Below are positions 2,735 through 46,606 of a DNA stretch of 64,000 nt, piece by piece. A program made the translations under genes and the position numbers. The notes beneath the pieces were generated by a model. It was not told the DNA's origin. It made no database searches and saw only the letters and a list, made by a program, of their open reading frames with translations. Numbering within the stretch: position 1 is the first letter of the stretch; every line of letters starts with the position of its first letter. Location: the NCBI RefSeq assembly GCF_010882175.1, contig NZ_WKLH01000003.1, forward strand, positions 1-64,000, written 5' to 3'. The stretch comes from Mangrovibacterium lignilyticum (GTDB lineage Bacteria > Bacteroidota > Bacteroidia > Bacteroidales > Prolixibacteraceae).

Positions 2735-3250
2735 AAAATGGCGCTGGTAAACATTTCCACGTCTCTGGTAAGTACTTCCTCCGCTCTGGTAAGCATTTCC
2801 CCCGCCTGGAAATACGGGAAAACAGCCCGAAAGCGACTGAAAGAGCCCGGATGCAGCCGGCAAGCGGGCGTTTTAAGCACACCGTCGTTTCTCGCAGGCT
2901 TACCGGCAAGCTTCGCGCTGTCACCATCGCCTCGGGTAAGCTCTTCCGCTTCGTTCGCGATCTTCGTCGCGTCTTTGGCAGGTATTTCCCCGCCCCGGCC
3001 AAGGTCTTCCGCAAGCCTGGCAGGCTTTTGCTCACCGGTCTCAGCCTTTTCCGCAACTTACTCAACCTTGCCCTCGCCTCGTTCAACCTTCCCCGCTTCT
3101 TTCTCAACCTGTAGCTCCGTTCTCGCGATGTTATCCTCAACTTTCGTAACCATTTCCTCATCTTTCGCCACCATTTCCTCAAAGCTACAGAGGCTGCGAA
3201 AGGCGGGGTCAACCGGCCGGTTGCTGCAGAGCGGATGAGACCGACCGGGC
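2735..3250. repeat. Intergenic 21-nt-period degenerate repeat array 1
   Basis: This is a GC-rich block between the cassettes and metK, made of degenerate units repeating every 21 nt. Examples are CATTTCCTC at 3151 and 3172, and on the minus strand CTTACCAGAG recurring 21 nt apart near 2790-2740. Read on the minus strand, one frame encodes heptads such as EEMVAKD, EEMVTKV, EDNIART and, further on, GEMLTRA, EEVLTRD. That register runs straight through an in-frame TAA near 3058, so an intact protein is unlikely. A flank GTAGcTTTGAGGAAATGG (minus strand, about 3190) recurs in array 2 at 31345. A 15-bp palindrome, AAGCCTGGCAGGCTT, lies at 3013-3027. Overlapping ORFs in several frames look spurious. 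Confidence 0.65.
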
Positions 3251-3349: not shown

Positions 3350-3358
3350 CCGCCGTAT

Positions 3359-3420
3359 TTGTGGACAAATTTGAGATTGATTGCAACCACATAAAAAAAT
3401 GCTAAAGCAGTCGCTTTAAC
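3359..3420 (+). ncRNA. SAM-II riboswitch with overlapping hairpin
   Basis: The leader matches the SAM-II aptamer. GTGG (3361-3364) pairs with CCAC (3387-3390), with ATTTGA and TTGCAACCAC between, followed by an A-rich linker and the conserved GCTAAAG pseudoknot strand at 3401-3407. SAM-II occurs in Bacteroidota and Proteobacteria and shuts off methionine/SAM genes when SAM is bound. A 6-bp hairpin TAAAGC-AGTC-GCTTTA (3403-3418), followed by CCTTTTT, overlaps the pseudoknot strand, so the two structures exclude each other. The metK ATG is about 115 nt downstream, so classical RBS masking by the aptamer itself is not obvious. Confidence 0.85.
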
Positions 3421-30946: not shown

Positions 30947-30974
30947 TCCCTGACAATCATTTTATCTCGTTTCT

Positions 30975-31380
30975 TTTTCGGCCTGTAGAGATTTGACGGA
31001 ATGGTCGAAAAACACGACTGAAACACTGCTAGAGACGACCGAAACATTGAAAAAGATGCTAAAGACATTGAAAAAGACGACAGCCGGCTCGAAAGACAGG
31101 ATGAGAATACAGGAAAAGTTGCCGGCAACATGGCTAAATGCGACGAACTTCTTACCAGCAACGACGGCCGCAGCAAAAAAGCCGCTGGTAAGCCTGCCAA
31201 AGACGACAGGAGATTTACCGGAGAAGACAGGGACAGGGCGAAGCCCGACGAAATACCAACCAGAAACCACGAAGGAGCCAAAAGCTGCAAAGCTCGACCC
31301 AAAAGGTAGTATCGCCGGTACCCCCGGGCCTTTTCCGGACTCCGTAGATTTGAGGAAATAGTTGAAAAAACGCTCCTTTG
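30975..31380. repeat. Intergenic 21-nt-period degenerate repeat array 2
   Basis: A purine-rich block between the protease gene and the aromatic operon. GAAAC/GAGAC/AAGAC motifs recur at alternating 12 and 9 nt (31020, 31032, 31041, 31053, 31062, 31074), a 21-nt period. In one plus frame it spells heptads RNIEKDA, KDIEKDD, SRLERQD, ENTGKVA, GNMAKCD and so on to about 31305, after an early in-frame TGA at 31019. It is bounded by direct copies of a flank, GTAGAGATTTGACGGAATGG (30985) and GTAGATTTGAGGAAATAG (31344), also present in array 1. CCTGCCAAAGACGAC (31193) has a near copy in array 1. No convincing gene. Confidence 0.65.
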
Positions 31381-43128: not shown

Positions 43129-43311
43129 ATGGTAGAAAGAATTATTCGCGCTGTTGCAGGCATATTTGTCCTGATCAGCATCCTGCTGGCTATTTATGTG
43201 AATATAAACTGGCTGTTTTTTACAGGTTTTGTGGGGTTAAACCTATTACAGTCGTCCATCACTAAATTTTGCCCGCTGGAGTATATTTTGAAGAAGTCAG
43301 GGGTGAAGTAA
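43129..43311 (+). CDS. DUF2892 small membrane protein
   Basis: A 60-residue protein with two hydrophobic helices (AVAGIFVLISILLAIYVN and LFFTGFVGLNLLQSSI) and the DUF2892 ending KFCPLEYILKKSG with one Cys. The family occurs beside rhodanese, sulfur and metal-efflux genes and is thought to be an inner-membrane accessory. It is the last gene of the efflux operon, 27 bp after the PII-like gene, and is followed by a terminator. Confidence 0.85.
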   Translation: MVERIIRAVAGIFVLISILLAIYVNINWLFFTGFVGLNLLQSSITKFCPLEYILKKSGVK

Positions 43312-43336
43312 AATCACGGGTTTTTGTTTTATTCTG

Positions 43337-43370
43337 AAAAGCAGTACACAGCAATGGGTGCTGCTTTTTT
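43337..43370 (+). terminator. Intrinsic terminator of the efflux operon
   Basis: AAAAGCAG (43337-43344) and CTGCTTTT (43361-43368) form an 8-bp stem, ending in a T-run. Confidence 0.8.
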
Positions 43371-43404
43371 GGCTTCGGGTGATGCGGCTCCCAATCGCAT
43401 TAAA

Positions 43405-43711
43405 TCCGTCCCTGCCAACAAGCAGGCAGCCCTGCTGAAAAATTCCGGCCCCTGCCCAAATAAACACTGTCCTGCTATGATCAGACCCGTCCTGCCGGTT
43501 TTATTTCGGTCCTGCCGGAAGGTCACACAGTCCTGTCGCTTTTTTTGCTTCCCTGCCCGGCAGGACACCCGACGAACCAACAGGGAAGACCACCCAACCG
43601 GCAGGGAGGTCGAATTATCAGCAGGGTTACCCGCCCCACCGACAGGACGGCCCGCCCGGGCAACAGGGCCTGAAAAAAACCGGCAGGGCCGGAAATTTTT
43701 GAGCAGGGCGA
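43405..43711. repeat. Symmetric inverted array of sixteen CCTGCC-type motifs, about 20-nt period
   Basis: Eight CCTG(C/T)(C/T) motifs start at 43411, 43431, 43451, 43471, 43491, 43511, 43532 and 43552. Eight mirror-image CAGG motifs start at 43561, 43581, 43602, 43622, 43643, 43664, 43684 and 43704. The two halves meet in the palindrome CCTGCCCGGCAGG centred on 43558. Distances from the centre are 1, 21, 42, 62, 82, 102, 122, 142 on the left and 1, 21, 42, 62, 83, 104, 124, 144 on the right. The DNA between motifs is not complementary between the halves. It lies between two convergent transcription units. ORFs on both strands across it look spurious, since a 20-nt period breaks frame. Confidence 0.85.
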
Positions 43712-43791
43712 AAAAATCAACGGAAAATAGTTCGACTCTTTCGGCTGATGCCGTTTCCAACCGCGCCATAGCAAAACTGCCATGCAAAAGT

Positions 43792-43811
43792 CAGCGGTTG
43801 AAAACCGCTGC
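43792..43811 (-). terminator. Hairpin downstream of polA
   Basis: CAGCGGTT and AACCGCTG arms, followed on the minus strand by ACTTTTGC. A weak T-run, so a modest terminator. Confidence 0.55.
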
Positions 43812-43816
43812 ACCTG

Positions 43817-46606
43817 CTAATGCGCTTCCAGCCAGTTTTGACCGGCATTCATTTCAACATCGAGTGGTAAACCAACCTCAACGGCGTGCTCCATCTGCTC
43901 TTTGACGATTTGCTTTACTTGTTCCAGCTCGCTTTTGGGAACGTCGAAGTTCAATTCATCATGCACCTGTAGCAACATTTTAGCCTCTAGTTTATTCCTG
44001 TTCAGCTCTTTCCAAATGTTGATCATGGCGAGCTTAATGATATCGGCTGCCGATCCCTGGATTGGCGCGTTGATGGCATTTCGTTCAGCAACACCGCGCA
44101 CAACCGCATTGGCCGAGTTGATATCTTTCAGATAGCGGCGACGGCCCCTGATGGTCTCCACATAGCCTTTATCGCGGGCAACCTGGATACACTCATCCAT
44201 GTATTCCTTCACGCGCGAAAAGTTCTCAAAATAGCCATCAATAAGCTGTTTGGCCTCCGTCCGCGGAATGTTGAGCCGCTCGGACAAGCCAAAAGCGGAA
44301 ATACCGTAAATGATACCGAAGTTCGCCGTTTTGGCTTTGCGCCGCATATCCGAGGTCACTTCCTCCAGCGGAACTTTATAAATTTTGGCAGCCGTGGCCG
44401 CGTGAATATCCTGCTTGTTGCGGAATGCTTCCAGCATGTGCTCATCCTTGCTCAGAGCGGCCATAATGCGCAATTCAATTTGTGAGTAGTCGGCCGACAA
44501 AAACAAATGCTCGTCATCCGATGCCGTGAAAGCGCGCCGAATTTCCCGGCCGTTTTCATCTCGAATCGGGATGTTTTGCAGGTTCGGGTTTGTCGAACTC
44601 AATCGTCCTGTTGCCGCAATCGTTTGGTTATAGGTCGTATGAATCTTACCTGTTTTGGCATCGACCAACTGCGGAAGCGCCTCAACATAGGTAGAAAGTA
44701 ATTTCTTCAACCCGCGAAAATCGAGTATTTTCCCCACAATCGGGTGCTTATCAACCAGCTTAATCAACACGTCTTCCGACGTTGAATACTGCTTGGTTTT
44801 AGTCATTTTAGCTTTCGAATCAATCTTCAGCTTCTCAAATAAAATCGGCCCCAACTGCTTTGGCGAGGAAAGGTTGAAATCTTCACCGGCCAACTCCTTA
44901 ATCTCAGCTTCCAGCTCAATCAACTGTTTGCGCAACACTTCGGCATATTCGTCCAGTGCTTTTGTGTTCAGCGTAACGCCCGCCACTTCCATATCCGCCA
45001 AAACCGGGATTAGTGGCATCTCAATTTCCTCGAAAACCGACCGGACACCGGTTTTATCCAAATCCCCGTCAATGGCCAGTTTAAGCTGAAGCGTGAGGTC
45101 CGCGTCCTCGCACGCATAATCGCGCAGCTTTTCAACCGGGACGTGTCGCATGGTCTTCTGGTTTTTACCTTTCTTGCCTATCAACTCTTCGGTCTCTACC
45201 TTCCGGTAACCCAAATAAGTTTCGCACAAATAGTCGAGGTTGTGCCGCAGCTCGGGTTGAATGAGGTAATGTGCAATCATGGTATCGTACAGCGGCCCTT
45301 TCACCTCCATGCCATACTGTTTCAACATTAAAATATCGTACTTAATGTTTTGACCAATCTTGCGAATATTTTCATCTTCAAAAATCAAACGAAACTCTTC
45401 CAAAACTTTCAGCGCTTCTTCCCGTTTTTCAGGAAGCGTCACACAAAAGGCTTCTCCCTTGCGGAATGCGAACGATAAACACACCAACTCAGCTTTACTG
45501 GTGTCGAGACCCGTTGTTTCAGTGTCGAAGCAAAACTCTTCCTGAACCGATAACTCTGCTTTCAGGCTAGCACGTTGCATGGCATTTTCAACCAGGTAAT
45601 ACTCGTGCTGCGTGTTCTCAATGTTTGCCAGATCTGTGGCAGGTGCAAGTTCAGGAGCAGTCTCCGGAGCACCAAACAAGGTGCCTTGCTCAAAAGCAGC
45701 ATCAGCAACGGCAGCTTTCGCCGGCTCCATCTTTTGCACCATCGAACGAAACTCCAGTTCGGTGAAAATTTCCTTCAAAGCAGCCCAATCCGGATCAGCC
45801 ATGGTCAAGCTGGCTTCGTCAAACTCAACCGGCACATCCTGAATGATGACCACCAATTCCCGCGACAAACGCACCTGCTCTTCGTTTTGCTGCAGGTTTT
45901 CTTTTTGCTTCCCTTTTAAATCATCAATATTGGCGTAAAGATTGTCGATCGATCCATACTTGCCGATCAGTTTCATCGCTGTTTTGGGACCAATTCCGGG
46001 ACAGCCCGGAATATTGTCTGCCGTATCGCCCATCAACCCTAAAATATCGATCACCTGATCAGGCGTTTCAATTTCGAAATTCTCTTTAACTTCATTTGTT
46101 CCCCAAATTTCAACCTCGTTGCCTCCGCGTCCGGGTTTGTACATGAGAATATTATCGGACACCAGCTGCGCATAGTCCTTATCCGGAGTCATCATATAGG
46201 TTGTGTATCCTTCTTGCTCCGCTTTTTTAGCCAAGGTCCCGATTACATCGTCCGCTTCAAATCCTTCTTTCTCCAATATCGGAATATTATAGGCTTCAAT
46301 AATTTTACGAACCCACGGAATCGCTTTACGCAAGTCTTCCGGCATTTCTTCACGATTTGCCTTATAGGGCTCATACATTTTATGCCTGAAAGTTGGCGCA
46401 TGCACATCGAACACCACAGCTACATGAGTTGGTTTCTCTTTACTTAGCAACATTTCCAGGGTGTTTGTAAACCCCAACATGGCCGATGTATTCAAGCCTT
46501 TTGAATTATAACGCGGATTTCGGATGAACGCAAAGTACGAACGATAAATTAGTGCGTAAGCATCAAGTAAAAACAAACGTTTATCCGGAGTGGCAGTGTC
46601 TGACAT
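43817..46606 (-). CDS. polA: DNA polymerase I
   Basis: A 929-residue repair and Okazaki-fragment polymerase with all three domains. The 5' nuclease starts LFLLDAYALIYRSYFAF and includes GDTADNIPGCPGIGPKTAMKLI. The proofreading exonuclease is intact, with the acidic FDTETTGLD and NIKYDILMLKQYG. The polymerase has ADYSQIELRIMAALS, TANFGIIYGISAFGLSERL and LLQVHDELNFDVP. ATG 46606 (MSDTATPDKR) is chosen; the frame continues upstream 27 codons without family similarity. It converges on the efflux operon with the CCTGCC array between. Confidence 0.97.
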   Translation of the reverse strand: MSDTATPDKRLFLLDAYALIYRSYFAFIRNPRYNSKGLNTSAMLGFTNTLEMLLSKEKPTHVAVVFDVHAPTFRHKMYEPYKANREEMPEDLRKAIPWVRKIIEAYNIPILEKEGFEADDVIGTLAKKAEQEGYTTYMMTPDKDYAQLVSDNILMYKPGRGGNEVEIWGTNEVKENFEIETPDQVIDILGLMGDTADNIPGCPGIGPKTAMKLIGKYGSIDNLYANIDDLKGKQKENLQQNEEQVRLSRELVVIIQDVPVEFDEASLTMADPDWAALKEIFTELEFRSMVQKMEPAKAAVADAAFEQGTLFGAPETAPELAPATDLANIENTQHEYYLVENAMQRASLKAELSVQEEFCFDTETTGLDTSKAELVCLSFAFRKGEAFCVTLPEKREEALKVLEEFRLIFEDENIRKIGQNIKYDILMLKQYGMEVKGPLYDTMIAHYLIQPELRHNLDYLCETYLGYRKVETEELIGKKGKNQKTMRHVPVEKLRDYACEDADLTLQLKLAIDGDLDKTGVRSVFEEIEMPLIPVLADMEVAGVTLNTKALDEYAEVLRKQLIELEAEIKELAGEDFNLSSPKQLGPILFEKLKIDSKAKMTKTKQYSTSEDVLIKLVDKHPIVGKILDFRGLKKLLSTYVEALPQLVDAKTGKIHTTYNQTIAATGRLSSTNPNLQNIPIRDENGREIRRAFTASDDEHLFLSADYSQIELRIMAALSKDEHMLEAFRNKQDIHAATAAKIYKVPLEEVTSDMRRKAKTANFGIIYGISAFGLSERLNIPRTEAKQLIDGYFENFSRVKEYMDECIQVARDKGYVETIRGRRRYLKDINSANAVVRGVAERNAINAPIQGSAADIIKLAMINIWKELNRNKLEAKMLLQVHDELNFDVPKSELEQVKQIVKEQMEHAVEVGLPLDVEMNAGQNWLEAH

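Follow-up and report, generated by a model that had tools for sequence, protein, structure and literature searches.

Iteron origins and ParR/parC-type centromeres consist of tandem binding sites that lie next to a protein gene and recur about every two helical turns. The known repeats of type III toxin-antitoxin loci are alike along their length, and CRISPRs are built from near-identical direct repeats of at least 23 nt. The mark of REP and BIME elements is a GTAG or CGTC tag on a palindrome of 20–40 bp. For another member of the Bacteroidota, Porphyromonas gingivalis, the accessible part of one study describes BrickBuilt, an intergenic MITE of 23-nt repeats with conserved and non-conserved sites that has terminal inverted repeats, and a second MITE, PgRS, with 41-nt repeats (PMC4596501). 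The gyrase site motif, as given in an excerpt of its source, has symmetric arms with a 10.75-bp modulation of GC content over 130 bp and no fixed core (PMC6379681). In an excerpt of a study on RIP, interspersed homology consists of short identical units at helical intervals, with the rest free to vary (PMC4858203). Searches of an open-access library gave no account of the arrays described here, or of the protein family 'PQLLE'. As dispersed repeats, the arrays work like MITEs or REPs; what appears to be new is a class of arrays that is phase-locked, two-armed, and linked to a gene.

The window analyzed here is a stretch of 64,000 nucleotides from Mangrovibacterium lignilyticum (genome G000; G denotes a genome and L a locus, and G001, G002, and G003 are congeners). 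At positions 43405–43711 it contains a two-armed phased array of 16 cores that is assigned to neither strand. The left arm (43411–43555, plus strand) has eight CCTG cores pointing to the center, which start at 43411, 43431, 43451, 43471, 43491, 43511, 43532, and 43552, so that the steps outward from the center are 20, 21, 20, 20, 20, 20, and 20 nt. The right arm (43561–43707, minus strand) has eight inverted cores, read as CAGG on the plus strand, starting at 43561, 43581, 43602, 43622, 43643, 43664, 43684, and 43704, with steps from the center of 20, 21, 20, 21, 21, 20, and 20 nt. Every step within an arm is thus 20 or 21 nt. The two arms meet in a 13-bp odd palindrome, CCTGCCCGGCAGG (43552–43564, no strand). 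The eight-plus-eight arrangement at 20–21 nt claimed in the initial annotation is confirmed by these positions. Its motifs, given there as CCTGCC and GGCAGG, hold for the CCTG and CAGG cores, but the bases after CCTG are mostly Y-Y-R and not strictly CC; 90 units from the arrays of G000 yield the core K-Y-CCTG-Y-Y-R.

A chance origin of the array is excluded. When positions 43381–43740 were shuffled 2000 times with dinucleotide composition preserved, no 4-mer formed a 20/21 chain longer than 4 (a length reached in three shuffles), against 8 per arm in the window array. A three-core pattern matches 12 times in the window versus 0.04 expected, and all 12 matches lie inside the array (43411–43707). 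The mirror-matched distances from the center, which had been emphasized, are present in the window but are to be expected, because both arms share one period. In relatives the arms are often unequal (8:3, 7:4, and 9:3), and a matched number of cores is therefore not essential. The tight center does recur: of the 32 distinct two-armed arrays, counting orthologues, 29 have a gap of 5 nt between the last CCTG and the first CAGG, where a two-armed array was defined by at least seven cores with at least two per arm. None of L113, L147–L149, L151, L153–L161, L174, and L176, among other loci examined, qualifies as two-armed.

TRF reports no repeat at the window array, and only a short core is common to the units, which are set in inverted arms. 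This sets the array apart from CRISPR repeats and upholds the view that it is neither a CRISPR nor a simple tandem repeat. A coding repeat was also considered and rejected: two of six frames stay open across the array, which overlaps three ORFs (193, 152, and 96 aa), but the mixture of 20- and 21-nt steps shifts the frame, and the array is taken as noncoding for this reason. Like REP and BIME elements as described in the available part of PMC3733652, the arrays are intergenic, inverted, and species-specific. GTAG is absent from the window array. Of the 16 window units, 2 have a CGTC that ends at the first core base; the corresponding counts are 12 of 104 in G000 and 45 of 201 in the related genus. 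No REP-like palindrome per array unit was seen. The arrays differ from REP/BIME elements and their RAYT tyrosine transposases in strict two-turn spacing, variable spacers, and the lack of a regular RAYT neighbor.

The array lies between two convergent genes, one for a YgaP-like transmembrane protein upstream (PF11127; 43129–43311, plus strand) and polA, for DNA polymerase I, downstream (PF00476; 43817–46687, minus strand). It starts 100 nt past the YgaP-like stop codon, after a terminator-like hairpin with a T run (43337–43370, plus strand), and ends 110 nt short of the end of polA, which has a terminator-like hairpin of its own on the 3' side (43783–43810, minus strand). The DNA polymerase I of the window is closest to Prolixibacteraceae, Maribellus and Draconibacterium records. 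All three congeners keep the YgaP-like gene with a matching hairpin and lack the array; about 440 bp (43370–43810, boundaries approximate) have no counterpart, and other short sequence stands in their place. A 25-nt direct repeat of 80% identity brackets the array (43374–43398 and 43740–43764, both on the plus strand) and is a possible trace of insertion. At the ends of the extra DNA, which are approximate, no terminal inverted repeat appears in the inverted-repeat listing of 43200–43900. There is no adjacent Rep or ParR gene, the flanks being polA and the YgaP-like gene. The arrays resemble iterons and parC-type sites in having tandem sites about two turns apart near a protein gene, and differ from them in being chromosomal, in occurring several times per genome, in their two inward arms, in their changing core word, and in a protein without a Pfam match.

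The absence of the array at polA in all three congeners, together with the bracketing repeat, is what would be expected of a REP- or MITE-like non-autonomous mobile repeat spreading into intergenic sites. Its spread would perhaps be helped by the gene A/PQLLE product described below or by a transposase, with the phasing reflecting the mode of copying or a minor use by the host. We consider this explanation rather unlikely. It has a precedent in BrickBuilt, an intergenic 23-nt-repeat MITE which is the nearest published relative that we found. Within the available part of their description, BrickBuilt and PgRS share with the arrays an occurrence in Bacteroidota, an intergenic position, several copies per genome, tandem units, and presence or absence between strains (PMC4596501). 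However, BrickBuilt has direct 23-nt units and terminal inverted repeats and is not described in that part as two-armed or gene-linked (PMC4596501), whereas the window-type arrays have two inward arms, a period of ~20.4 bp, no terminal inverted repeat seen, and a link to gene A/PQLLE. A mobile repeat also leaves the two inward arms and the fixed center unexplained.

A loose search of G000 for the CCTG ladder found five more large arrays besides that of the window, a small variant (L113), and scattered single ladder matches on contigs C8 to C13. Six arrays of this genome, the window array included, are two-armed; two of the left arms in G000 were extended by hand across degenerate units. Their neighbors are unrelated genes, for instance a phosphofructokinase gene at L115 and a ribonucleotide reductase gene at L116. 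A terminator-like hairpin is seen by eye shortly before the start of four of the six arrays (window, L111, L115, and L116). The initial annotation had also suggested a replication-related site. A single-copy site of that kind is unlikely, given several G000 arrays at unrelated genes and the absence of the window array from three of three congeners. Of the 140 family genomes, 67 have CCTGYY triple cores, although by eye some of these look like simple or coding repeats. Beyond G000, the exact CCTG center has one match each in 5 of 393 order genomes (a sample that included five family genomes) and 1 of 296 phylum genomes; no array is visible in the matched letters of these six, and the pattern is blind to other core words.

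Arrays turn over between species. The phosphofructokinase locus has a gap of 91 bp in G003 versus 467 bp in G000, and the ribonucleotide reductase locus one of 89 bp versus 517 bp. At the former, G002 carries an unrelated array with 41–42-nt steps and a chain of 8, and the repeats of G001 form a chain of no more than 4; at the latter, repeats that look palindromic by eye are present in both G001 and G002. These short gaps and other repeats again favor a mobile repeat. The scan used here for phased sites requires at least five identical 4-mers at 20–22, 41, or 42 nt, and it misses arrays: the ribonucleotide reductase loci of G001 and G002 are not flagged, L190 and L198 are array-like by eye yet negative, and in L308 the chain stops at 4. 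The G002 array at L111 has 21-nt spacing and a different core, and G003 has none there by the scan. At L114, a mirrored CCTGTG array lies between the same two genes in G002, and one adjoins the same right-hand gene in G001, so that the core has shifted in concert from CCTGYY in G000 to CCTGTG in both congeners.

In seven genomes of a related genus (g11, taken here as Draconibacterium), an orthologous array precedes a class-I tRNA synthetase gene by ~185 nt. By reading, this gene encodes IleRS; the Pfam class I match was made on L168 only. Over the alignment columns with at least five rows, 59 of 60 core columns are invariant (98%) compared with 74 of 116 spacer columns (64%), and the flanks have 69 of 132 invariant columns at the 5' side and 19 of 99 at the 3' side. 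Length changes among these orthologues are of 20 and 40 nt, apart from a 10-nt deletion in G117, equal to one turn, and the loss of a single base in G120. Fits to 21 unique arm patterns, some of them from orthologues and two with degenerate units placed by hand, gave a mean period of 20.42 bp, and in the same patterns the 20- and 21-nt steps are more evenly interleaved than permuted ones (p 0.0072). The core and the spacing are under selection. The selection on helical phasing that had been proposed is thus supported by the core conservation, the mostly unit-sized indels, and the interleaved steps, and spacing is indeed conserved at orthologous loci. The accompanying statement that spacing rather than sequence is conserved is correct for the spacers but not for the core.

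The array upstream of the synthetase gene, with its cores kept in seven genomes, speaks against a mobile repeat. It also bears on whether the arrays are decaying, functionless tandem repeats, an explanation that was already disfavored and that we regard as highly improbable. The turnover between species would agree with decay, as would some PQLLE-linked arrays that are nearly perfect 21-nt repeats, such as L229; the difference between 98% and 64% invariance, the phase-keeping steps, and the recurring two-armed design do not. The core is nearly constant within one array and different between arrays. This likens the arrays to the RIP pattern, in which, according to the excerpt, identical short units also recur at helical intervals with otherwise variable sequence. 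RIP compares repeats in fungi (PMC4858203), whereas the identity here lies within one array.

Because the arms are inverted complements, the array could act as RNA, either as a laddered hairpin paired through its cores or, in the manner of type III toxin-antitoxin systems, as a repeat RNA that partners the protein encoded next to it. The whole window array folds with a z score of -5.75 against dinucleotide shuffles. The spacers help: most of the 17 arrays analyzed fold better on the plus strand than versions with shuffled spacers (z from +0.13 to -3.40). The initial annotation had called the spacers non-complementary, which fails for 43429–43456 and 43682–43709 (86% complementary) but holds in that pairing across the arrays is not register-specific. 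When units were permuted within arms, the fold energy stayed about unchanged in 12 of 13 arrays, the exception being L114, where 1 of 40 permutations folds as well. Mirrored cores do not covary, neither in G000 (0.619 versus 0.644 expected, 42 pairs) nor in g11 (0.667 versus 0.689, 53 pairs). Between mirrored spacers of g11, the similarity is slightly above that of permuted ones (p 0.0045 and 0.0105, from orthologues that are not independent).

An in-register RNA stem was rejected on the results for unit permutation and core covariation, and the large RNA structure nucleated by short stems that had been suggested loses its support with it. Loci with a protein gene and adjacent noncoding repeats, sometimes with a terminator between them, do resemble type III loci. 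In contrast to the repeats of those loci, the array units share only a short core. The arms are unequal, and Rfam has no match at the window array. We consider an RNA element improbable.

The two-armed form of the window array and its position between convergent genes would also suit a strong site for gyrase or another topoisomerase, with periodic arms wrapped around the center to absorb supercoils. The available part of PMC6379681 describes E. coli gyrase sites as symmetric, 130 bp long, and GC-periodic on both sides, and reports many gyrase cuts in BIME-2 elements. The arrays share with this motif the symmetric periodic arms about a center (PMC6379681). They differ from the motif, as far as it is set out there, in having a nearly constant core and a 13-bp center where the motif has 10.75-bp periodicity and no fixed core. 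The unit logos do not show such a GC modulation, having at most one AT-rich valley per unit, namely one in relatives and almost none in G000. A topoisomerase site would leave the gene linkage unexplained as well, and we give it only a slim chance.

At 10 of the 47 CCTG-array loci, ORF calling identified one flanking gene from a single uncharacterized family of ~245 aa (gene A). Gene A, whose counterpart in a type III locus would be a ToxN-like toxin, has no Pfam match. Against the NCBIfam family PQLLE it scores 18.4 bits (E 0.0014), which does not reach the curated cut-off of 80 bits, and it may at most be a distant relative of PQLLE. A sequence search of the PDB returned nothing significant (best E 0.46), and the protein reads as helical. 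A phage or plasmid home for gene A was considered and discarded, with no confirmed relative in viral contigs and none in plasmids.

Although gene A was first noticed as a neighbor of CCTG arrays, the following counts come from protein searches. A search of 41 genomes gave 13 loci with a gene A match, short fragments included, and 10 of these 13 carry a phased array on the 3' side; the arrays mostly have other core words, among them a two-armed CGAGTA array recognized by eye. Matches to NF052641 in 296 phylum genomes have an array at 22 of all 28 loci, on the 5' side in 20 of the 22. In a third sample (395 class genomes, 91 matches), an array is present at 15 of the 30 loci examined, divided between strong matches (10 of 19) and weak ones (5 of 11). 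A single G000 gene among the 30 also belongs to the 28-locus sample and is arrayless both times. Many of the 28 and 30 loci score only 20–30 bits, and many of the sampled genomes are related, so that not all loci are independent. As a control, 744 kb of DNA contained 10 phased sites: 7 in 564 kb from the family (the window, with two of them, and 25 stretches of 20 kb) and 3 in 180 kb (9 stretches from PQLLE-bearing phylum genomes), with nothing from the third sample. Three control sites fall in one G780 stretch, and two of these adjoin PQLLE-like ORFs by eye. Unrelated polA neighborhoods have a phased site in 6 of 268 chunks of 3 kb.

Across the 140 family genomes, gene A is found in 29 of 42 that are CCTG-array-positive versus 20 of 98 that are array-negative (Fisher p 7e-8). 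Still, among the 91 genomes in which no gene A was detected, 13 are array-positive, a class including some simple or coding repeats. Three of the four known gene A/PQLLE-type genes of G000 adjoin an array, each with its own word (C8:155864, C8:1843326, and C10:458311); the fourth, at C9:316608, has no adjacent array, and no CCTG array adjoins any gene A copy in this genome. Pieces of gene A lie beside some seemingly solitary arrays (G100, G106, and G089), and arrays may therefore outlive the gene. The same remnants can be read in favor of a mobile repeat. RAYT-like tyrosine transposase ORFs adjoin gene A arrays in two genomes (L297, 972–1610; L187, 599–1207), and a third lies 1.6 kb from an array, giving three gene loci in all (five records, two of them repeats). 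With only these three among the loci examined, RAYT was rejected as a systematic partner, which counts against mobility. Outside the family, arrays beside PQLLE genes are mostly of exactly 21 nt, many with an open frame. In some arrays (L309, L225, and L243), two unit types alternate, which brings the period to about 42 nt.

A multimeric DNA-binding protein is the best reading of the array, as judged from sequence, and the likeliest partner would be the gene A/PQLLE-like family encoded next to many arrays. We propose tentatively, as a possibility that falls somewhat short of probable, that the window array is a DNA platform for such a protein and belongs to a dispersed class of arrays. The cores, spaced two turns apart, would all face the same side of the helix and point from either arm toward the palindromic center, and the protein may load onto them as an ordered two-armed filament or wrap, in a complex that might insulate or organize the DNA. 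The window array would be one of several dispersed copies, gained between the two terminator-like hairpins. In the wider Bacteroidota class, spacing and core identity within an array would be preserved, with a core word that differs from one array to the next. The choice of partner follows from linkage, which might equally reflect joint transfer of gene and array. Proteins that are 72% identical adjoin arrays with unrelated cores (L169, CCTGTT; L187, GGAAAG), which is awkward for direct readout and indicates that the protein either evolves its specificity fast or does not read the word.

A bolder version, which we consider distinctly unlikely, is that gene A/PQLLE and the phased arrays form an undescribed two-part system of Bacteroidota that senses two-turn self-similarity, with solitary arrays as dispersed docking sites. 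The core would then be replaceable wholesale with the spacing kept, and the nucleoprotein might read homology or organize the chromosome. If the core word is free and the phase fixed, recognition would work in an unusual way. The linkage ties an uncharacterized protein family to a DNA pattern missed by ordinary repeat finding (TRF). It gives a way to find such arrays in genomes, and phase-dependent DNA organization in Bacteroidota becomes testable.

Further phased stretches were observed outside these loci. In the control stretches, arrays are present in G000 (two) and G094 (L337, 13849–14062; L349, 7572–7723; L342, 2419–2590), with the cores CTAACC, GTTATT, and TTATCACC by eye. In G046, from the same order, 21-nt CCTGCCCGA-type repeats in outward orientation surround a gap (C154:25229–25613). 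The window itself has a weak, degenerate 21-nt phased stretch of GAAA and GACGAC units behind a long ORF (30970–31360), where one chain of five 4-mers passes the scan. It also contains a Group II intron match on the minus strand (235–351; RF01999, 93.5 bits) and a SAM-II riboswitch (3355–3415; Rfam RF01726, 62 bits). Upstream of the riboswitch and, by reading, of metK, TRF reports period-21 blocks at 2744–2809, 3039–3110, and 3134–3182, which the 4-mer scan does not flag and which ORFs overlap (2744–3182).
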